A DNA stretch of 64,000 bases from Desulfoluna sp. (lineage in GTDB: Bacteria; Desulfobacterota; Desulfobacteria; Desulfobacterales; Desulfolunaceae), in assembly GCF_030145185.1 (NCBI RefSeq), contig NZ_JAQYWB010000001.1, positions 1 through 64,000 of the forward strand, in the 5' to 3' direction. The notes below the pieces were generated by a model. It had not been told where the DNA came from and ran no database searches. It worked only from the letters and a program-made list of their open reading frames with translations. This document shows positions 33,416 through 54,050 of the stretch, one piece after another. Positions within the stretch are counted from its first letter, which is position 1, and every line of letters begins with the position of its first letter. The position numbers and the translations under genes were made by a program.

Positions 33416-34333
33416 ATGCGCTCAATAGCCATCGTTGATGAAGACAAAAGCGTTCGGGATTCCGTGGCCGACTACCTTACCCTTGCAGGGTTTGAGGTCA
33501 TCGCCTTTGCCTCAGCAAACGAGGCCCTCACCCACCTTGCGTCCACCCCCATGGATATCGTGATCACCGATATCCCCCTGAAAGGGACCAGCGGGTTTGA
33601 GCTCACCGATACCATCAAAAAAAACTTCGCCGCCGATGTCATCATCCTCACGGGATACAGCACCGGCTACTCCTACGAGGAAGCGATCAACAAAGGGGCC
33701 AGTGACTTTGTCTTCAAACCAGTCCGCTTTGAAGAGCTGCTGCTGCGTATCAAACGGGTACTCCATGAACGACGCCTGACAAGCGAACGCAACGAGATGC
33801 TCAACCGACTCAAACGAATGGCCGTCACCGACCCGCTCACCCGGCTCTTTAACCTCCGCTACTTCTACAATCAACTCGAAAAAGAGATCGAGCGATTTAA
33901 CCGCTACAACCGCCCCCTGGCCCTGATGCTTCTCGATATTGACAATTTTAAAATTTTCAACGATACCTATGGTCACCTTGAGGGAGACCGCATCCTGGTA
34001 AACCTGGGTAAAGTGATCCGGGAGTGCCTGAGGACCATGGATTCTGGCTACCGCTTCGGCGGAGAAGAGTTTACCGTAATTCTTCCTGAGACCACCATCA
34101 ATGAAGGAATTGTGGTGGCGGAAAGAATTCAGAAGGCCATGAGAGACAGCTCTTTCTCTCCCGCCTCGGCACCCGAACCCGTCATCACGACACTCAGCAT
34201 TGGGCTTACCGAATACGCCTCAGGGGAACCCTTGAGAGAATTTGTCCGCAGAGCGGACCAAGCCATGTACCTCTCTAAAGCGAGGGGAAAAGATCTCATT
34301 TCCCTGCTGAACAAGGACAACACCACCGAATAA
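33416..34333 (+). CDS. Response regulator with GGDEF diguanylate cyclase domain
   Basis: A two-component output protein predicted to make cyclic di-GMP. The 305-residue protein has a receiver domain at residues 1-120: acidic D8/D10, phospho-acceptor Asp52 in VITDIPLKG, LTGYS, and Lys in FKPVRF. After a short helix comes a GGDEF domain from about 135. It has DPLTRLFNLRYF, MLLDIDNFKIFNDTYGHLEGD and the intact active site GGEEF (about 213-217). The RTMD inhibitory site sits five residues before it, so the enzyme should be active and feedback-inhibited. ATG at 33416 is chosen because MRSIAIVDED fits the receiver start; the frame opens earlier at a TTG with no site. It has no adjacent histidine kinase. 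It could feed the c-di-GMP riboswitches at 49.4-49.8 kb. Confidence 0.93.
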   Translation: MRSIAIVDEDKSVRDSVADYLTLAGFEVIAFASANEALTHLASTPMDIVITDIPLKGTSGFELTDTIKKNFAADVIILTGYSTGYSYEEAINKGASDFVFKPVRFEELLLRIKRVLHERRLTSERNEMLNRLKRMAVTDPLTRLFNLRYFYNQLEKEIERFNRYNRPLALMLLDIDNFKIFNDTYGHLEGDRILVNLGKVIRECLRTMDSGYRFGGEEFTVILPETTINEGIVVAERIQKAMRDSSFSPASAPEPVITTLSIGLTEYASGEPLREFVRRADQAMYLSKARGKDLISLLNKDNTTE

Positions 34334-43430: not shown

Positions 43431-43807
43431 AAATCCACCCTCCTAAAAGTAAATTGAGTAACGAATCATCCGCCGATGCATCATGACGGATTCTGTTGTG
43501 ACTTATCTCCTGCACATGAGAGTCCCACCCGGAGGCAGGATAACTGCCACAACGCCACGTTTATTCTATGTACTTCAAAATAAACAAGGTTCACTTTCTA
43601 AAATAGTTATCTGTCACTTAACACCTACTGTCAACTTTTTTTTGAATGTTTATGGACATCTACCCTGACAGAGCCCACCCCTCATGTTTCCCTTGACCCC
43701 CCCATATCCTTCTGCTAACGTTTCTTCTATGGCATAAACGATGTTCACTTAATCCAAATCAGCTCACCACCACAATCATGGCAATCAAGCCAGGGGAGGA
43801 GAGAAGC
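43431..43807. promoter_or_regulatory. Divergent promoter region of two secreted-protein genes
   Basis: About 375 bp between the two divergently transcribed members of the ITGQ/LGT group. A weak plus-strand promoter candidate is TTGACC (43693-43698) followed 17 bp later by TAACGT. No c-di-GMP riboswitch core (GGGACGGAAAG type) is seen here on either strand. Confidence 0.4.
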
Positions 43808-44710
43808 ATGACATGCCGAGTGCTCAGAATCGTTGTTGTGTGGATTACCTTTCTGCTGCTGAATACTTCGGTGGCTCTGGCCATTGAATCCCTCACCAAC
43901 CATGCCATGGACGGCATCACGGGCCAGGCGGTAGTGGAGCAATCCAATGAAGCCCGCGAAACGACCTACTCCGTTCAGACAGAGACCATGGCTCATGACG
44001 ATATCCTCCGCATGGCCCTTCCCAAACAGAGCATGTCCCCCTCCACCTCAAGTAGCGCCGACACCCATTCTGTAATTATCGATTTTCTCGGGATTGAGGG
44101 GGATGCACGAAGGGGCATTGACGCCAAAGATTTCCACGGCGACGTAGAAGTAGGAAATATTTTTTACAGGGATGAGGACACCCTTACGTATGTTCATCTT
44201 CACGGAACATTTCTCGGCGAATTTACAGTGCCCTCAACCTACGCGGATAAAGTCACGCGGTTTAAAACCATCCTGGCTTCGAAAGATCGTATCAAGGGGG
44301 CCAACCTCGAGGGACATTACCTTCTCAGTTATCAGGGAAATCTCTATACAAAGAATGACCTCTCCGACAAGGCCTCCTTTTTAATCTATCCCAACCGCCA
44401 AGTCCAGACGGTCGGAAAAACCGGTGACGTCCCTCTGAACCTGCTTATTCCACATGGAGAAAAAGAGAACACAGAGTGGCGATTATTCACCACCATCCCT
44501 GCCAAAACAAACTTTGTACAAATAGACATCAACCGCCTGATCACCACACACAACGCAGCATACACAGTCAAACTGTCAAACAATGCCAAAGGGCTCAACG
44601 CCGGGGATATCGGGGCATCACCAGAAGACCACACCGGTGTGCTCGGCACGCTCTACTTTGCCGGCGAAACACTGGTCGAAGGCGGCACAATGGTAATCAC
44701 CGTACAATAG
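43808..44710 (+). CDS. Secreted protein with ITGQ start and LGT beta end
   Basis: A 300-residue exported protein. After a signal peptide (about residues 1-27, ending SVALA) comes the signature SLTNHAMDGITGQAVVEQ. The rest is beta-rich: VIIDFLGIEGDARRG, DTLTYVHLHGTFLGEFTV, GHYLLSYQGNLY. The end is GVLGTLYFAGETLVEGGTMV followed by ITVQ, clearly parallel to the ends of the proteins at 42843 and 49823. The ATG at 43808 follows GGAGGAGAG; the frame extends ten codons upstream without support. It heads the run towards the C39 peptidase and barrel genes. I infer a surface-exposed or fibre-type subunit or substrate, not an enzyme. Confidence 0.8.
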   Translation: MTCRVLRIVVVWITFLLLNTSVALAIESLTNHAMDGITGQAVVEQSNEARETTYSVQTETMAHDDILRMALPKQSMSPSTSSSADTHSVIIDFLGIEGDARRGIDAKDFHGDVEVGNIFYRDEDTLTYVHLHGTFLGEFTVPSTYADKVTRFKTILASKDRIKGANLEGHYLLSYQGNLYTKNDLSDKASFLIYPNRQVQTVGKTGDVPLNLLIPHGEKENTEWRLFTTIPAKTNFVQIDINRLITTHNAAYTVKLSNNAKGLNAGDIGASPEDHTGVLGTLYFAGETLVEGGTMVITVQ

Positions 44711-45064: not shown

Positions 45065-45814
45065 ATGCATATTCTCGCCGCTTTTCTTATCGGTATCGGG
45101 TTTTTTTCCATCTACCATCCTCTCGACAAGGTCCCGGAGAATCAGGTAACCGTCCTCGACCTGGAAAAACCCCAGTTTGCGGTCGGGCATCCCATTGAGC
45201 CCCTGTCCGAGATCGAAAAGCGACGTATCATCAAGCAAAACTACGACTACAGCTGTGGGTCTGCAGCGCTGGCCACCCTGCTCAAATTCCATATGGGTGA
45301 AGATTTTACCGAGCAACAGGTAATCTGGGGCCTTCTGAAATACGGTGATGTCGAGCGCATTCAGGAAAGACGGGCATTTTCTCTTCTGGACATGAAAAAA
45401 TTTGTCAGTGTTCTGGGCTATGAGGCCAACGGATACACCGCAAAAATGGAAGATCTCTCCGCCTCGGAATACTGGCCCTGCATCGTGCCCATCAAGTTCT
45501 TCGGGTACCGTCACTTTGTGGTGGTGAAAGGCATTCACAAAGGGCATGTCTTCGTGGCGGACCCCTGGCGCGGCCACAGCAGCTACACTGTGCCCCAGTT
45601 TCAAAAGATCTGGTATAAAAACGTGATGTTTATCGTGTCGGACAAAGACTCTCGCCCCTTGGGAAATCTGACTCTGATTCGTGACGATCTGCGTTTTATT
45701 GATGAAGAGATCACCCGGTTTGCCCTTTTTCAACAGGACATGGTCGAAAAACAGGTCGACACCCAGCGGATCCTGAATGAATCCAGCGGGGACACCCTCT
45801 ACTTCAGAAATTAA
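45065..45814 (+). CDS. C39-type (FapD-like) cysteine peptidase
   Basis: A 249-residue papain-like peptidase of the C39 type. The N-terminus is a hydrophobic signal or anchor (ILAAFLIGIGFFSIY), so it acts at or beyond the inner membrane. The catalytic residues are visible: Cys64 in QNYDYSCGSAALATLL, His150 in FGYRHFVVV and Asp166 in VADPWRG. A C-terminal tail of about 70 residues follows. C39 peptidases cleave double-glycine leaders in ABC exporters, but stand-alone versions occur as FapD in the Pseudomonas amyloid operon. The next gene encodes a coiled-coil/barrel protein like FapF, which supports that comparison. AAGGA lies nine bases before the ATG. Confidence 0.87.
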   Translation: MHILAAFLIGIGFFSIYHPLDKVPENQVTVLDLEKPQFAVGHPIEPLSEIEKRRIIKQNYDYSCGSAALATLLKFHMGEDFTEQQVIWGLLKYGDVERIQERRAFSLLDMKKFVSVLGYEANGYTAKMEDLSASEYWPCIVPIKFFGYRHFVVVKGIHKGHVFVADPWRGHSSYTVPQFQKIWYKNVMFIVSDKDSRPLGNLTLIRDDLRFIDEEITRFALFQQDMVEKQVDTQRILNESSGDTLYFRN

Positions 45815-45907
45815 TTCGTTTTGTATGATTTTAACTCAGCACGACAGGTAGGTTTGGTTCCCCCAACGCCCCCAGCGTGTTCACCCCTGATCAAGGAGAC
45901 GGTTGTG

Positions 45908-46990
45908 ATGAGAAGAGCCGGCATACTGCTTATATGGATCGTTGCCATGGGAGTCTTTTTTCTCCCGGCGTTTACCTGGGCAGAGGAGCCCACCGGCAAG
46001 GATCAGGCATCCCTCGAATCCATTGTCACAGAACTCGAACAGCTGAGAAGCGAGCTGGCCGCCATCAAGCAGGCGGCCCAGATCCGTGACCAACTCGAAT
46101 CCACCAGTGAGGAAAAGACCGAAGAGAGCGAACGGATTCTCACGGCCGTCGGCCAGGAGTATGTCCTCCGCAGGGAGGGCTCTCTGGGCGTCACCTACGG
46201 GGCCAGCTACTCCTACAACTCGTCCGATGTCCTTGAAAATGCAAAGACCCAGCTCACGGTGGACCACACCAGCAACCACAGCCTCAGCAACAGCGTCAGC
46301 GTACAATACGGCCTGCGCAACTATCTCACCGTCAATGGGTCGATCCCCTTCCTCTACAAATGGGACCAGCAGTCCACCTCCTCGGAACGCAACGCCACCG
46401 ACATCGGCGACATCAGCTTCGGGTGCCAATGGCAGCCTGTGCCCACCTCAACGGGAAAGGCCTCTTACATTGTCAACACCTCCCTGATCATCCCATCGGG
46501 CACCAGCCCCTACAAAATCGATGTCGACGATGCCCTCTCCACAGGATCCGGTTTCTACTCCGCCCTGGCGGAGCTCTCCATCAGCAAACCCATCGACCCC
46601 ATCATGGCCTTCGGCAGCCTTTCGTACCGCTACACCCATGAAATCACAGGGCTCAACCAGGTACGAAACGGTCCCAATGACGCCTCGGCCTTAAAAGAGG
46701 TCTCTCCGGGAGACACCATCGGCGGTTCCATGGGCATCGCCTATGCTCTCTCCTATCAGGTGACCCTCCACTTAAGTTGCCAGTACTCACATACCACAAG
46801 CTACGAGTTTGACTGGCATGGCGGAGAGAGCAACAAAACCGGCAGTTCAACGGCAGCCTCCATGAACATTGGTACCGGCTGGAAACTCTCCCCCGAAAGT
46901 TCCATGAACATTACATTGGGCGTCGGCCTCACGGACGCGACCTCTGATTTTACGCTGTCATTTTCCATGCCCTTTAACTTTACGATGTAA
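45908..46990 (+). CDS. Outer-membrane barrel protein with N-terminal coiled coil (FapF-like)
   Basis: A 360-residue outer-membrane protein. Residues 1-26 are a signal peptide ending in FTWAEE. Residues 30-75 form a coiled coil (LESIVTELEQLRSELAAIKQ). From about 90 on, alternating strands with aromatic girdles suggest a barrel of about 12 strands: GVTYGASYSYNSSD, YGLRNYLTVNGSIPF, YIVNTSLIIPSG, FGSLSYRYTHEI. The last strand ends FSMPFNFTM. The coiled-coil-plus-barrel layout is that of FapF, the pore for amyloid subunits, and resembles Phenol_MetA_deg-type 'transporters'. The ATG at 45908 follows AAGGAGA; the frame is open further upstream without a signal peptide. It lies 93 bp after the C39 peptidase gene. 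Confidence 0.82.
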   Translation: MRRAGILLIWIVAMGVFFLPAFTWAEEPTGKDQASLESIVTELEQLRSELAAIKQAAQIRDQLESTSEEKTEESERILTAVGQEYVLRREGSLGVTYGASYSYNSSDVLENAKTQLTVDHTSNHSLSNSVSVQYGLRNYLTVNGSIPFLYKWDQQSTSSERNATDIGDISFGCQWQPVPTSTGKASYIVNTSLIIPSGTSPYKIDVDDALSTGSGFYSALAELSISKPIDPIMAFGSLSYRYTHEITGLNQVRNGPNDASALKEVSPGDTIGGSMGIAYALSYQVTLHLSCQYSHTTSYEFDWHGGESNKTGSSTAASMNIGTGWKLSPESSMNITLGVGLTDATSDFTLSFSMPFNFTM

Positions 46991-47092: not shown

Positions 47093-48853
47093 ATGATGAG
47101 AAGAGCTGTGAACACCTTGCGCATGCGATGGCACTTACCGTCTGTTTCAACTCTGGCGATACTCTGCCTTCTGATCTCAGCCCCTCAACAGGCCGGGGCC
47201 ATGTTTGTGGAGCAAATGGCGGTCTCCACCCGGGCCATCGCCCTGGGAAATGCCTGCACCGCAGACCCTCCAGGCATCATGAGTGTTCACTACAACCCGG
47301 CAGGACTCTCCAGGCTCCCCGACCAGGCCTTCAGCCAGGGCCTGACCCTTCCCTTTATCTTTCAAGAGATCAGCCTGACCGCCGATCCGGACATGGAGCC
47401 GTTTATGGATGGTTCCAGCCCGAACCCGGTAAATTTACCCAATGGAAACGGAGCCTCAGAAGCGTCCAAGGTGGACCCCCTGGCCGGAACCTCCGGGACC
47501 AGCGGCCCATCCATGTATGTTCCGATCCTGAATGACACGATCCCCTTTCTGGCCGGCCCGACCTTAGGTATTTCATCGCGCAAACAAGACTCCAGATGGA
47601 CCTTTGCCTACGCCAACTACTCACCCTTCGCCGTGGGCCTCACCCAGGAAGGCGAGGACAACCCCGCACGCTATCAGGCCAAGGCCCTGGGCCAGCAACA
47701 CCTGATCTACGCCGCGCCGGCCTTAAGCTACCAGGTCAACGACAAACTCGCCCTGGGATTTTCTGTGGGCATGGGCCAGACCGCCACCTACGCCACCCTC
47801 GACATGCGCATGCCCAACCAAATGACGGCCCTGACCAAGGTCCTCGGTGACGCCACCAAGGATCTCAACATCCCCATCATCAGTCAGATGACCCTGCCCC
47901 CCCCCTGGTTTGGTGGGGGCGTCGGGCCTTACGACAAAGTGGCCCAGCTCAGCATCACCATGCGAGACGACTTCTCGCCCAACTATAACCTGGGGGTGCT
48001 TTACGAACCCTGGGGTTGGCTCTCCCTGGGCATCACCTACCAGAGCGAGATCAATGTCGAACAGGTGGGAAACTGGGAGGTTCAGTACTCCAAACAATTC
48101 AAGGCCATGATCGACTGGCTCGGCCAGGGCAACATCTTGCCTGTTACGGCCGCCATGCTCAACCTCCCCACCAATGGAGAAAACCAAGCCGGTTACGTCA
48201 CCAACAACATGACCATCCCGCAGCGCGTCCAGGCCGGGATCGCCTTAAAGCCCACGAAATATTTCCAGCTCCTCTTCGATGTGAACTGGGTGGACTGGTC
48301 GGTTCTTGCTCAAGATAAATTTTCCTTTGACCGCCAGGCTGATTTTTTGCGCTTTGCCACCCTCATGGGTTACACTGGTGGGCCGGATACCATGATCATT
48401 CAACGCGATTTTGAAGACACCATCAGCTGGGCCACAGGCCTCGAAATTTTTCCCACGGACTGGCTCACCTGGCGTTTCGGGTATGAATGGCGCCCCACCT
48501 CCGTGCAGGAAGAGCTCTATGATGCCATGTACGCCGTACCAGATATGCACAACTTCGGCACCGGGTTCGGCATTAAAACCAAAAGCAATGTCGTTATCGA
48601 TGTCTCTTTCGCCTATCTTATCGGTGAGACGATGGAGATTCCCAATAACGGCAGTACCAACATGAACTCCACCGACTTCAATAAACCTGTCTACAACCCT
48701 TACGCAGGCCTGGACTTCAAAGAGGAGATGACCGCCTACATTGTCTCAGTCAATGTCCGTATGCCCATCCATGTCATGAAGGAGCATATGCACCATCAGG
48801 CAGAAATGGTGAAAAGTGCCTATCACTTCCTCAACCCCTTTGACGGAGAATAG
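47093..48853 (+). CDS. OMPP1/FadL/TodX-family outer-membrane protein
   Basis: A 586-residue barrel of the family that takes up long-chain fatty acids or other hydrophobic compounds. The signal peptide ends near residue 38 (QQAGA). Next is the family's plug region: VEQMAVSTRAIALGNACTAD and SVHYNPAGLSRL, like the 'NPAG' of FadL. Many amphipathic strands follow (WTFAYANYSPF, YNLGVLYEPWGWLSLGITYQ, WLTWRFGYEWRPTS, VVIDVSFAYLIG). It is longer than E. coli FadL (about 446 residues), mainly through loops. AAGGAAACC precedes the ATG; a second ATG follows directly. It comes 102 bp after the barrel/coiled-coil gene and may belong to the same transcript. Confidence 0.9.
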   Translation: MMRRAVNTLRMRWHLPSVSTLAILCLLISAPQQAGAMFVEQMAVSTRAIALGNACTADPPGIMSVHYNPAGLSRLPDQAFSQGLTLPFIFQEISLTADPDMEPFMDGSSPNPVNLPNGNGASEASKVDPLAGTSGTSGPSMYVPILNDTIPFLAGPTLGISSRKQDSRWTFAYANYSPFAVGLTQEGEDNPARYQAKALGQQHLIYAAPALSYQVNDKLALGFSVGMGQTATYATLDMRMPNQMTALTKVLGDATKDLNIPIISQMTLPPPWFGGGVGPYDKVAQLSITMRDDFSPNYNLGVLYEPWGWLSLGITYQSEINVEQVGNWEVQYSKQFKAMIDWLGQGNILPVTAAMLNLPTNGENQAGYVTNNMTIPQRVQAGIALKPTKYFQLLFDVNWVDWSVLAQDKFSFDRQADFLRFATLMGYTGGPDTMIIQRDFEDTISWATGLEIFPTDWLTWRFGYEWRPTSVQEELYDAMYAVPDMHNFGTGFGIKTKSNVVIDVSFAYLIGETMEIPNNGSTNMNSTDFNKPVYNPYAGLDFKEEMTAYIVSVNVRMPIHVMKEHMHHQAEMVKSAYHFLNPFDGE

Positions 48854-49435
48854 GCCAGGAGCCATCCCTTCCCGGCAAACAGTCAAAGCCAAGCGGACTC
48901 CACCCCCTCGACTCTCAGCGTCCAAGCCTGACATGCCCTCCCGATCCGAGACCTCTTTCACGTCAGGCCCGCACGGCACCTTGCCAGTGCCGTGATCCGC
49001 AATCCCGACCACCTGTTCACTTTACCGATAAAACGCCCTTTTTTTTGCCCCTCGCCCCACCCCGGATCCCTTCCCCACCCGATGCGCCATCCATGCAGAA
49101 CATCCCCTGATCCGCCCGGTTCCCGCCTGCCTTCCAACCCAGCCATCCTTCACGAAACTCTTCCCGCAAACCTGGCATCCTTTTTGTATTAAATTTAATC
49201 AGAGACAAAACAGATATAACCTGAAATTCAAGCACACGGCTGACATCACGATCACACCGGCAAGTCTCTAAAAAAATGCAGGTTTTTTATCTAAACTTCC
49301 ATGTATGATATGTCGAAATATAGAGATAGCAGGGGACTATACCCATCATCTCTCCCCCACCCGACCTATCGTTCTTTGACAATGAAAACCCATCCCACGA
49401 CGTAAGCGTTGAGGTGGGTAAAAGAGAGGCTAAGC
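48854..49435. other. Leader region upstream of the riboswitch array
   Basis: About 580 bp with no supported gene. TGGCATCCTTTTTGTATT at 49168-49185 resembles a sigma-54 site with one mismatch at the -12 element. TTGACA occurs at 49376-49381 without a good -10. ACCCATCC and AGGTGGGT near 49388 and 49412 can pair imperfectly just before the first aptamer. Confidence 0.4.
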
Positions 49436-49510
49436 GTACAACGCCAAACCGGGGGTAACCCCGGGACGGAAAGTCACGGGTCCATCATCCATGGACAGCC
49501 GAACCGCCCG
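49436..49510 (+). promoter_or_regulatory. Cyclic-di-GMP-I (GEMM) riboswitch aptamer 1
   Basis: CCAAACC leads into the P1b stem CCGGGG/CCCCGG with a GTAA (GNRA) tetraloop (49449-49464). Then come the conserved GGGACGGAAAGTCACGGGTCC core, a short variable arm, and the 3' receptor strand GGACAGCCGAACCGCC (49493-49508). The order matches the GEMM-I consensus. Its receptor strand is the most diverged of the three. Confidence 0.85.
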
Positions 49511-49536
49511 CGCACCTGTGCGGGATTTACATAACC

Positions 49537-49645
49537 ATGCCAAACCGGGGGCAACCCCGAGACGGAAAGCCACGGGTCCAAAACAGGGGTCATCCATCTC
49601 CAAAGACAGGAGAGGCTCCTTTTTATTGGACAGCCGGGCCGCCTC
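49537..49645 (+). promoter_or_regulatory. Cyclic-di-GMP-I (GEMM) riboswitch aptamer 2
   Basis: CCAAACC, the stem CGGGG/CCCC(G) with a GCAA tetraloop (49551-49554), the core GACGGAAAGCCACGGGTCC, a long variable arm, and GGACAGCCGGGCCGCC (49628-49643). The arm contains AGGAG-AGG-CTCCT followed by TTTTATT (49608-49626), a terminator-like hairpin. Confidence 0.85.
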
Positions 49646-49649
49646 CCAA

Positions 49650-49797
49650 CATACCAAACCAGGGGCAACCCTGGGACGGAAAGCCACGGGTCCAGAAGAG
49701 ACGGAAAGGACCTCCCACGGCACGACCTGACACCTGTCAGCAAAACCTGCCAACGGAGATCTTTACCTGACACCCACGGGACAGCCGGGTTACCTGC
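49650..49797 (+). promoter_or_regulatory. Cyclic-di-GMP-I (GEMM) riboswitch aptamer 3
   Basis: CCAAACC, stem CCAGGG/CCCTGG with a GCAA loop (49659-49674), core GGGACGGAAAGCCACGGGTCC, a variable arm of about 80 nt, and GGACAGCCGGGTTACC (49779-49794). It ends 26 bases before the ATG at 49823. A small CTGCC/GGCAG hairpin without T run follows, so control of translation is more likely than termination. Confidence 0.85.
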
Positions 49798-49822
49798 CGA
49801 AAAGGCAGAAAAGGGGAATACC

Positions 49823-50272
49823 ATGAAAAAGCAGTATATGATCGTCACCTTGATATGTTCACTGGTTGTTTTATCCGGCGCTGTCAGTTCCCAGGCCCAG
49901 ATTGTTCCCATGAGTGATTCACAATTAGCTGGAATCACTGGGCAGGCAGGTTTTTCTCCCCAGGGAAGCTATAGCGATTTACAACGAAACGCCGGAACAA
50001 ACAACATGCACCTCGGAGGACTTGGCGCCGCCCTGCATCTGTCAGACGCCTCGTACCAGATCGAAAGAACCGGTGAAGTCAGCGCTATTCGAATGGCCGC
50101 AAACGGAACCTCCTACTCCTTTGAGATTAAAAATCCAGGCCTGACGCTTCGAAATTTTCAGACCCGTCTTCACATCGGCAATCAACCAGGCACCGGGAAT
50201 AGTCTTGGCACGGTCTCCGTAGAACATATCCGGGTAACCACCCATGGGACGGTACGCATCACCGTCAAATAA
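49823..50272 (+). CDS. Small secreted ITGQ protein under riboswitch control
   Basis: A 149-residue exported protein. The signal peptide is clear (MIVTLICSLVVLSGAVSSQA, cleavage near residue 25). It is followed by VPMSDSQLAGITGQAGFS, the family signature in its cleanest form. The mature chain is short and beta-rich (TSYSFEIKNPGLTLRNFQTR) and ends SLGTVSVEHIRVTTHGTVRI then TVK, matching the LGT...G...I end of the proteins at 42843 and 43808. GGGGAA precedes the ATG. It lies directly behind three c-di-GMP-I aptamers, so its expression should respond to c-di-GMP. Function is unknown. A secreted matrix or fibre component is the best guess from context. Confidence 0.85.
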   Translation: MKKQYMIVTLICSLVVLSGAVSSQAQIVPMSDSQLAGITGQAGFSPQGSYSDLQRNAGTNNMHLGGLGAALHLSDASYQIERTGEVSAIRMAANGTSYSFEIKNPGLTLRNFQTRLHIGNQPGTGNSLGTVSVEHIRVTTHGTVRITVK

Positions 50273-50297
50273 CGGGTCGTCCCGGCCCCTCTTTTAC

Positions 50298-50331
50298 CCA
50301 CCTCGCCGCTTACGGCCCGAAGGCGAGGTGG
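50298..50331 (+). promoter_or_regulatory. Stem-loop after the ITGQ gene
   Basis: CCACCTCGCC and GGCGAGGTGG pair perfectly around a 14-nt loop 25 bp after the stop. A residues rather than T follow on the plus strand, so it is not a standard intrinsic terminator. Confidence 0.5.
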
Positions 50332-50349
50332 AAAAAATATTAAAAAAAA

Positions 50350-50440
50350 GCCTCCGGCGGCAAGGTGAGCAACCTTGAAAGCGAATTTGCGAATGCACCT
50401 CGGGCTGCGTATCTTGAGGCTGAAATGCATCCGCATTCGC
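50350..50440. repeat. REP-like element left of the propeller gene
   Basis: GCCTCCGGCGGCAAGGTG, then GCGAATTTGCGAATGC and GAAATGCATCCGCATTCGC. The right half is complementary to 53286-53340, on the other side of the gene at 50806. Confidence 0.75.
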
Positions 50441-50805
50441 CCGGAGACTAAAGTTGCCGGTTTATCGGACGTTAAGCGGTGCGCACGGCGCACCCTACCT
50501 TTCACATCGACACGGTTGCCAAAGGACAGGCCCTTTATACGGTTTCCTTCCTCATCGCCCCTGCAGCATCGGTGCGTGACGATTGGGTGGCATGCTCTGA
50601 ATAATTACCAAATAAATTAACTAAAATAGCTACCTGCCTCCGTCATTGCGCATCCCCACCCACGAAGCGCCCCAACCAACCTCACTCCCCCACACAAACC
50701 CATTTGACCCACGACATCTGCGTCATGTTGACTTCAAGGAAGAACTCCATTACATTGCAATAAACAATGTTAGCTACGCAATACTTCCAACACTCGGGAG
50801 GTCTC
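50441..50805. other. Intergenic region before the propeller gene
   Basis: No supported gene. GGTGCGCACGGCGCACC near 50477 is a near-palindrome. No clear promoter or riboswitch core is seen. Confidence 0.4.
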
Positions 50806-53285: not shown

Positions 53286-53395
53286 GCGAATGCGGATGCA
53301 TTTCAGCCTGGAGTGACGACTCCCGATGCGCATTCGCCAACCCGCTTTCGAGGTGGTTTTTGCTACAGTGGCTTCGCCACCTCGCCACCGGAGGC
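53286..53395. repeat. REP-like element right of the propeller gene
   Basis: GCGAATGCGGATGCATTTCA ... CATTCGCCAACCCGCTTTC ... CCACCGGAGGC. It is the inverted partner of 50350-50440, with a small extra stem (GTGGCTTCGCCAC). Confidence 0.75.
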
Positions 53396-53410
53396 AGCCA
53401 GGTTAAAAAT

Positions 53411-53523
53411 GCCTCCGGCGGCCCTGCCGGGGGCCAAACTTTTGAAAAGTTTGATAAACAGGTCTTAAAAAATAATCTCAGGTAAATCTAAAGCCCAAGG
53501 CGAATGTGATTTGACCCGAGGAA
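53411..53523. repeat. Left part of a split REP-like element
   Basis: GCCTCCGGCGGCCCTGCCGG through AAACTTTTGAAAAGTTT and GTGATTTGACCCGAGGAA. It matches the left ~115 bp of the intact element at 10757-10936. Confidence 0.8.
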
Positions 53524-53700
53524 TCCGCCTACGCAAAAGCCTCCGGCGTGACAAGTCCGCCTGCGCAAAAGCCTCCGGCGTGACAAGTCCGCCTGCGCAA
53601 AAGCCTCCGGCGTGACAAGTCCGCCTGCGCAAAAGCCTCCGGCGTGACAAGGCCGCCGACACAAAAGCCTCCGGCGTGACAAGGCCGCCTACGCCCATGT
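53524..53700. repeat. 32-bp tandem repeat array
   Basis: Five full units and one partial with an exact 32-bp period (starts at 53524, 53556, 53588, 53620, 53652, 53684). Each holds AAAAGCCTCCGGCGTGACAAG. The first four are nearly identical; the last carry substitutions. There are no spacers. A looser derivative continues to about 53782. Confidence 0.9.
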
Positions 53701-53782
53701 CAATGCGTCACCATCCGAACAACGCCGATGGGCTACGGCGCGACAAGCGATCCGTCTTCGCCTGCGGCTACGCCGTGACATG

Positions 53783-53838
53783 GGGGCAAAGCGCATTTGC
53801 AACCTGCTTTCAAGGTGGCACACCTTGCCGCCGGAGGC
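53783..53838. repeat. Right part of the split REP-like element
   Basis: GGGGCAAAGCGCATTTGCAA through TTGCCGCCGGAGGC, matching the right end of the element at 10757-10936 from the point where the left part stops. Confidence 0.8.
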
Positions 53839-54050
53839 ACGTTTTTGCCCCGAACTTTAACCATAGAAGGCATTGCTTTTTGTCCGTTTATTCTTTCCTT
53901 GCCCCCTTCCAAAAATAGCGTACCCTTTCAGGGTGCGAATGATTCTTGACACCATTCGTGAACGCGTGTTATTTCCGTGGGGTAACCTACGGACTGCACA
54001 AGAGATTTCCCGGAAGCCACCGCATCCCCTTCACCCGCCGGACAGATGCC

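Follow-up and report, generated by a model that had tools for sequence, protein, structure and literature searches.

The window analysed here is a stretch of 64,000 nucleotides (nt) from a member of the genus Desulfoluna, placed by NCBI taxonomy in the phylum Thermodesulfobacteriota. Three aptamers of the cyclic di-GMP (c-di-GMP) class I riboswitch (c-di-GMP-I, also GEMM-I) stand in a row in it, directly before the gene of a small secreted protein. The whole element reaches past the interval 49436-49797 to which a sequence-only reading had assigned the aptamers, and runs from about 49371 to 50314.

Three aptamers before a secreted-protein gene

The aptamers and the gene that they precede are as follows.

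49433 to 49511, forward strand: c-di-GMP-I aptamer 1, G20 at 49443 (RF01051, 50.6 bits)
49529 to 49646, forward strand: c-di-GMP-I aptamer 2, long arm, G20 at 49539 (RF01051, 49.2 bits)
49643 to 49797, forward strand: c-di-GMP-I-type aptamer 3, arm of about 80 nt, A20 at 49653 (RF01051, 49.9 bits)
49823 to 50272, forward strand: regulated gene, a 149-residue DUF6160-type secreted protein (PF19657, E = 1.2e-5; signal peptide by eye)

A covariance-model search of the window's own genome with RF01051 (gathering score 35) returned hits at 49433-49511, 49529-49646 and 49654-49794, with scores of 50.6, 49.2 and 42.0 bits, and the three consecutive aptamers of the sequence-only reading are thereby borne out. 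When the whole window was scanned with cmscan, aptamers 1 and 3 were printed and aptamer 2 was absent from the output; aptamer 3 then spanned 49643-49797 at 49.9 bits and overlapped the 3' end of aptamer 2. The sister model RF03167, applied to 49350-49850, gave three hits (E = 8.5e-13, 2.9e-9 and 3.3e-6), all under its cut-off of 59 bits. Other details of that reading agree with the letters: GNRA loops (GTAA, GCAA and GCAA), arms of differing length, an end of the third hit (49797) 26 bases before the ATG at 49823, and one small secreted-protein gene downstream. Overlooked were the gap of 9 nt before aptamer 3, the A20 of that aptamer, a boxA-like element, the complementarity of leader and trailer, and the fil neighbours. 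The 9 nt separate position 20 of aptamer 3 from the last conserved C in aptamer 2, which makes these two adjacent aptamers (less than 20 nt apart); the gap between aptamers 1 and 2 is wider.

The regulated protein is called no more than DUF6160-type, its score against PF19657, 25.9 bits, falling just under the Pfam cut-off of 27. All 18 aligned proteins, this one included, match PF19657 at E ≤ 0.01. Its structure model was weak (predicted local distance difference test 63, predicted template-modelling score 0.37) and comparison with the PDB gave no match at E ≤ 0.001; therefore no fold is claimed.

The sequence-only reading was right that tandem pairs are known, with 347 c-di-GMP-I doublets in print beside 12 triplets (PMC9481103). 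Its description of a triple array as unusual holds only in part, given those 12 triplets in a review, a tested one in Bacillus thuringiensis, and relatives of this locus with 4, 5 and 6 aptamers. The collections in PMC9481103 hold the same aptamer class in tandem as the arrays described here; they name quadruplets for glycine only, whereas the present arrays reach 4, 5 and 6 c-di-GMP-I aptamers. We found no c-di-GMP-I array of more than three aptamers in the literature searched, mostly open-access. A triplet alone is thus not new; the 9-nt spacing, a series of two to six aptamers and a frame of a boxA-like element and complementary flanks go beyond it.

Arrays in relatives and the frame around them

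Thirteen genomes of the phylum hold, at 15 loci, tight arrays before DUF6160-type genes, with two aptamers at three loci, three at three, four at six, five at two and six at one, and all 15 precede a short gene for a DUF6160-type secreted protein. (G, C and L numbers are our handles for genomes, contigs and loci.) Within the window's family, represented by 8 genomes, five aptamers occur at G001:C75 and G007:C122 and four at G001:C79 and G007:C136; D. limicola ASN36 (G003) has two and, by eye, a broken remnant of the first, and D. spongiiphila AA1, D. butyratoxydans MSL71 and MAG.254 have only one. The D. limicola remnant (L111) lies just upstream of the first intact aptamer and points to the loss of an array unit.

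The arrays were sought with a pattern of two closely spaced aptamers and their junction that made no use of boxA (12 of 389 genomes of the order; backward control 0). A looser pattern, run over 395 genomes of the phylum, contributed the array of G418; it matched 23 places in 19 of the 395 genomes while the backward control gave 24 hits, which makes most of the 23 chance matches, and among the resulting loci (L143-L165) only the window, G026 and G418 have more than one aptamer core. The patterns detect CCAAACC-type cores only and so overlook tight arrays of another make. A chance find of that sort is L191 (G045:C102, minus strand, about 1439-1795), where four GEMM-I aptamers, closely spaced, precede a 392-residue protein that we take, by eye, to be lipase-like. 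Some aptamer counts rest partly on pattern, because a covariance scan of ten array loci found 25 separate aptamers (E ≤ 0.001) where the regular expression found 34 (for example G016 5/6, G026 3/4, G752 1/3, G702 1/2); the arrays of G001, G007, G003 and the window are confirmed by the covariance model.

Four further features surround the aptamers and the gene.

49371 to 49381, forward strand: boxA-like element GTTCTTTGACA, fitting GYTCTTTAANA at 10 of 11 positions
49388 to 49419, forward strand: hairpin between boxA and leader strand (-14.8 kcal/mol by RNAfold; z = -2.9 relative to mononucleotide shuffles)
49401 to 49431, forward strand: leader strand, complementary to the trailer (duplex score 61, shuffle maximum 26.5)
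50284 to 50314, forward strand: trailer strand, 11 nt past the stop codon (inverted partner of the leader by BLAST)

The consensus GYTCTTTAANA is that of gamma-proteobacterial boxA (PMC5725501). A boxA-like element is present in all 15 arrays, 285-723 nt before the ATG. In 14 of 15 it stands, in the form TCTTTGA[ACG]A, at most 160 nt ahead of the first aptamer (in the fifteenth, G016, it is farther upstream), compared with 0 of 49 single-aptamer places (Fisher p = 3e-13), these being pattern-found single aptamers among the loci examined, a few of them possibly chance matches, counted outside L033-L060 and L117-L142 and at least 170 nt from the locus start. At three single-aptamer DUF6160 loci, neither a boxA in the leader read nor a leader/trailer duplex above shuffles was seen. 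A pattern of boxA, spacer and a GGTAAAAG-type strand recovered six family arrays and two other places in the 8 genomes (backward control 0), and a hairpin with z ≤ -2.0 follows boxA in 12 of the 15 arrays (z = -2.0 to -8.5).

Promoter explanations of this region were considered and set aside. TTGACA within the boxA-like element was tried as a sigma-70 -35 box, and no properly spaced -10 was seen in the leaders checked by eye; no sigma-70 promoter was hit on the plus strand of 48850-50450. Sigma-54-like sites were rejected as a shared feature: of the 15 arrays, just the two of the window and D. limicola have a candidate upstream. At the single-aptamer DUF6160 loci L112, L113 and L114, a sigma-54-like site (TGGCAC/A-N5-TTG) lies close upstream of the aptamer, by eye.

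Leader and trailer are complementary over 31 nt in the window, mismatches included, and 12 of the 13 positions of the leader core 49416-49428 pair with the trailer. BLAST over the 8 genomes independently matches the leader, in inverted orientation, to the trailer at 50285-50314 (E = 1.1e-4). Across the 15 arrays the trailer core lies 0-27 nt after the stop codon. The letters of the leader strand vary by lineage (GGGTAAAAGAGTA, GGAGGCAAAAAAC, GGGCAAAGAGTAA, TGCTGCCAGGGTA) and the pairing is kept: cognate 13-mers pair at 12-13 of 13 positions, compared with 4-12 when they are swapped among five divergent arrays. The longest Watson-Crick run is 9-16 base pairs (bp) in the arrays and 4-8 bp at 29 single-aptamer places with a complete open reading frame, and equally good other pairing sites in the 15 loci number 4 in 60,737 positions. 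Because the 13-mers were picked from the best duplexes and some duplexes taken singly fail against shuffles, the case for a helix rests on the whole set and on its fixed place. Taken so, the complementary flanks, with pairing preserved through changes of letter, are those of a predicted leader-trailer helix. A T-run of at least five within 14 nt after the trailer was counted by hand in 7 of the 15 arrays, the window having none.

Such repeats could instead be the terminal inverted repeats of a mobile or duplicated cassette and form no RNA helix, as is suggested by the resemblance of the window's repeats to a 31-nt inverted repeat around array and gene, and by the arrays with similar genes that occur twice in G001 and in G007. 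We consider this quite improbable. Besides the leader and its partner, a leader query of the genome recovers a single weak match of 26 nt (E = 0.41), and a dispersed repeat is thereby ruled out; lineages differ in the letters of the repeat and yet preserve its pairing; its position relative to boxA and stop codon is kept; and 10 of 15 arrays have fil genes upstream in the same orientation. No transposase was noticed, though no search aimed at transposases was made.

Junction, start region and position 20

Three short elements lie at the junction of the last two aptamers and just before the start codon.

49642 to 49647, forward strand: CCTCCC joining aptamers 2 and 3, a proposed anti-Shine-Dalgarno sequence (13 of 15 arrays have CCTCC at their last junction)
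49794 to 49808, forward strand: hairpin CTGCC-GAAAA-GGCAG just before the Shine-Dalgarno sequence (inner four pairs folded, outer C-G by eye)
49811 to 49817, forward strand: Shine-Dalgarno sequence AAGGGGA (by eye)

The last two aptamers are 6-10 nt apart in 14 of 15 arrays; in the exception, G418, the tight pair is the first two. At its last junction G026 has CCCTC in place of CCTCC. With G418 left out, the junction can pair with the Shine-Dalgarno region in 14 of 14 loci tested, and the duplexes of junction and start region average -7.6 kcal/mol, compared with -5.5 for shuffled junctions (0 of 200 shuffles as strong). In G752 both sides carry matching changes, CCUCCA with UGGAGG. When six arrays were folded with their leaders (RNAfold), the pairing was clear in G001_C79 (~0.65). 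A short stem before the Shine-Dalgarno sequence, in other letters, recurs by eye in other arrays and at the three single-aptamer DUF6160 loci; RNAfold draws it in 6 of 14 arrays folded and in 3 of 3 singles. A shared P1 helix enclosing the last aptamer pair was tried and rejected, its upstream:downstream pairing being matched by 38 of 200 shuffles and its upstream:junction pairing by 80 of 200.

The array might also be read as ordinary tandem c-di-GMP-I riboswitches like those of B. thuringiensis, with a terminator per aptamer giving a steeper response and boxA and flanking repeats incidental. A published triple has three independent terminator platforms (PMC4759541), and the window offers a terminator-like stem at 49608-49620 in the arm of aptamer 2 and, by eye, a GC hairpin after aptamer 1. 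We think this explanation unlikely. A terminator does not fit into the 9 nt that separate aptamers 2 and 3, so one does not follow every aptamer, although the arm stem of aptamer 2 and the wider gap behind aptamer 1 could each provide one; terminator-like sites barely exceed shuffles (5 against a mean of 2.9, standard deviation 1.7); tight spacing and the CCUCC junction recur among the arrays; and boxA and the leader/trailer pairing are absent from the singles tested. The stem and T-run inside the arm of aptamer 2 (49597-49620) could form an expression platform within the arm, in competition with its helix.

Position 20 sets the three aptamers apart, being G, G and A. We take G20, A47 and C92 to be the ligand contacts, in a numbering that agrees with the consensus lines of the UAU and GGC models. 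Aptamers 1 and 2 carry all three residues; aptamer 3 has the A at position 20 of c-AMP-GMP (GEMM-Ib) aptamers. The models of the GGC and UAU ligand variants score some aptamers higher, and these labels were dropped because window position 47 is A and position 92 is C. By pattern, position 20 is G in 53 of 55 array aptamers and A in two (window aptamer 3 and G026 aptamer 2); in the 49 singles it is G in 46, A in two and C in one.

In in-line probing, an aptamer of another species that has A at position 20 was a markedly better binder of c-AMP-GMP than its homologues with G (PMC9481103), and a Geobacter aptamer became selective for c-di-GMP when A20 was changed to G (PMC6456294). Aptamers 1 and 2 could thus sense c-di-GMP and aptamer 3 c-AMP-GMP, making a two-input gate; other mixed arrays occur in G026, which reads G, A, G, G, and in G045, where the pattern gives two A and inspection by eye two G. 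This mixed-signal arrangement is possible, if on the unlikely side. The serine of Hypr enzymes was found in 0 of 28 GGDEF domains (27 with aspartate, one degenerate) of this 96.92% complete genome, in which other cGAMP synthases were not searched, and the D. limicola orthologue of aptamer 3 has G20, so the A20 may be a recent change or decay. As no Hypr-type cyclase is among those 28 domains, a change of ligand in aptamer 3 is possible but unproven. Should the aptamers differ in response to ligand, for which the sequence-only reading had pointed to arm length, position 20 is the likelier source. Table 2 of PMC9481103, as shown, holds no c-AMP-GMP-type member beside c-di-GMP-I in one leader, as seen here. 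One GGDEF domain lies in the window itself (33821-34291, in a 346-residue open frame) and has aspartate at the Hypr position. At L062 and L063, both on minus strands, single A20 aptamers precede larger secreted proteins with a 'TGQAG' motif and may be c-AMP-GMP switches in two relatives.

The fil/fap-like neighbourhood and a proposed mechanism

Upstream of the array lie four genes that resemble fil and fap components.

43778 to 44710, forward strand: FilA-like secreted protein ('GITGQA' motif by eye)
45065 to 45814, forward strand: FilB-like C39 peptidase (NF050078, E = 2.9e-59; PF03412, E = 7.3e-18)
45821 to 46990, forward strand: FilC-like/FapF-like outer-membrane protein (NF050079, E = 6.4e-63; NF058560, E = 2.4e-18)
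47093 to 48853, forward strand: FilD-like FadL-family transporter (NF050080, E = 4.4e-90; PF03349, E = 5.1e-48)

The set resembles the Fil/Fap systems (NCBIfam FilB, FilC, FilD, FapD, FapF) in having a C39 peptidase and FilC/FapF-like and FadL-like proteins beside a secreted protein, and differs in that every score in the window is under the curated cut-off: FilB, FilC and FilD score 200.7, 213.4 and 302.5 bits against 475, 630 and 970, and are thus homologous and outside the curated families. Profile searches gave the FilA-like protein no credible Pfam family and no NCBIfam family; L111-L114 have homologues in the corresponding position. The 10 arrays mentioned above, the window counted, are those with FilC and FilD homologues upstream in the same orientation, nine of them with FilB as well; in G273, FilB was not found in the DNA stretch examined. 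The fil homologues of G752 adjoin the array on the opposite strand. None were found at G418 (10 kb), on the 5.9-kb contig of G016 or in the ~3 kb around G001_C75, and G216 (~3 kb) was left out of the test. They also occur at three single-aptamer DUF6160 loci. From this company we infer that the regulated protein may be an extracellular subunit exported by the neighbouring fil/fap-like system; our literature search on FilA, FilB and DUF6160 returned nothing on a fil-DUF6160 link. GC-rich palindromic repeats (GCCTCCGGCGGCAAGGTG and similar) at 50340-50440 and 53370-53900 look, by eye, like a dispersed repeat of the genome.

The reading that we favour, with modest confidence, is a translational c-di-GMP ON switch with an anti-Shine-Dalgarno sequence between the last two aptamers, set in a frame like that of a ribosomal RNA (rRNA) operon. 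The closely packed GEMM-I aptamers would control translation of the DUF6160-type protein in response to c-di-GMP. Without ligand, the junction would pair with the Shine-Dalgarno sequence and keep the gene OFF; c-di-GMP would fold the two aptamers that flank and overlap the junction, pull it off the Shine-Dalgarno sequence and turn the gene ON. Both the ON direction and the dependence on ligand we infer from the letters. The boxA-like element may load NusB/S10 onto RNA polymerase, so that the leader of 285-723 nt would be transcribed without premature (Rho) termination, and may hold the leader strand near the RNA exit channel, where the trailer could pair with it once the gene has been copied. 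That pairing would close the message at its ends and, where a lineage has a U-run behind the trailer, may contribute to ending transcription. According to a published model of rRNA, boxA keeps the leader at the polymerase, and the trailer pairs with the leader on emerging (PMC10250234). The array shares rRNA's order of parts, and the same choreography is therefore suggested: NusB/S10 may be loaded for the passage through a long, structured and untranslated leader, and leader and trailer would close after the gene.

A wider version of this picture is offered more tentatively, as one that we hold somewhat doubtful: an rRNA-operon-like protein message, in which a boxA-NusB tether carries up to six sensors and a gene, the trailer would snap onto the leader (forming a loop, with a U-run ending antiterminated transcription), the number of sensors would expand and contract, and some sensors would be of c-AMP-GMP type, giving mixed-signal arrays.

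Several observations weigh against the favoured switch and its frame. In RNAfold, the pairing of junction and Shine-Dalgarno sequence is only partial in the window (~0.4) and in D. limicola (~0.25), and in G007_C136, G007_C122 and G001_C75 the Shine-Dalgarno sequence pairs mainly elsewhere; the pairing is also partly generic, because CCUCC complements any Shine-Dalgarno sequence, and a P1 helix around the last pair scored no better than shuffles. The boxA-like element has G at position 8, hence its 10/11 fit, and the consensus is a gamma-proteobacterial one; searches for the organism's own rRNA operons found none. The hairpin is absent in 3 of the 15 arrays (G752, G273, G702), where the leader strand begins 0-4 nt after boxA, and the four-aptamer array of G045 is without boxA, so tight arrays exist outside the frame. 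When G-U pairs are allowed, the leader/trailer runs of arrays (11-21) and singles (6-14) overlap (Mann-Whitney p = 7e-8). Taken singly, the duplexes of G001_C79 (24.5 against 29) and G132_C78 (31 against 31.5) do not beat shuffles, those of G752 (29.5 against 28.5) and G177 (31 against 30) are marginal, and the top-scoring duplex of G702 is a different one.

Known systems share parts of this arrangement. Bc3-5 of B. thuringiensis also has three GEMM-I aptamers in a row before one operon, but with a terminator platform per unit, whereas the window's last pair is 9 nt apart and has one shared start region, a boxA-like element and a predicted leader/trailer helix (PMC4759541). Glycine-type adjacent-aptamer riboswitches share the spacing of less than 20 nt and a single platform after the pair; in the same survey c-di-GMP switches are enriched as complete tandem units, unlike the adjacent pair here (PMC12452182). 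The rRNA operon, too, begins with such a signal, there a boxA, followed by hairpins, and its flanks pair with each other around the product (PMC10250234). Here, by contrast, the enclosed RNA is a riboswitch array with its messenger RNA (mRNA), and the predicted helix is shorter, with longest unbroken runs of 11-21 bp including G-U and, in the window, 31 nt with mismatches. A boxA (GTTCTTTAAAA there) also precedes the long untranslated repeat arrays of clustered regularly interspaced short palindromic repeats (CRISPR), a different type of array for which that account describes no leader/trailer helix (PMC7862264). We found neither a boxA-framed riboswitch nor a leader-trailer helix around a riboswitch mRNA in the literature searched, again mostly open-access.

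If the favoured reading is true, the rRNA device of antitermination and end pairing would be used for a riboswitch-controlled mRNA, which would explain how bacteria afford leaders with up to six untranslated sensors. For sulfate reducers it would also link c-di-GMP with secretion by a fil/fap-like system, and the arrays, with one to six aptamers and mixed residues at position 20, would form a natural series for probing the effect of added aptamers.
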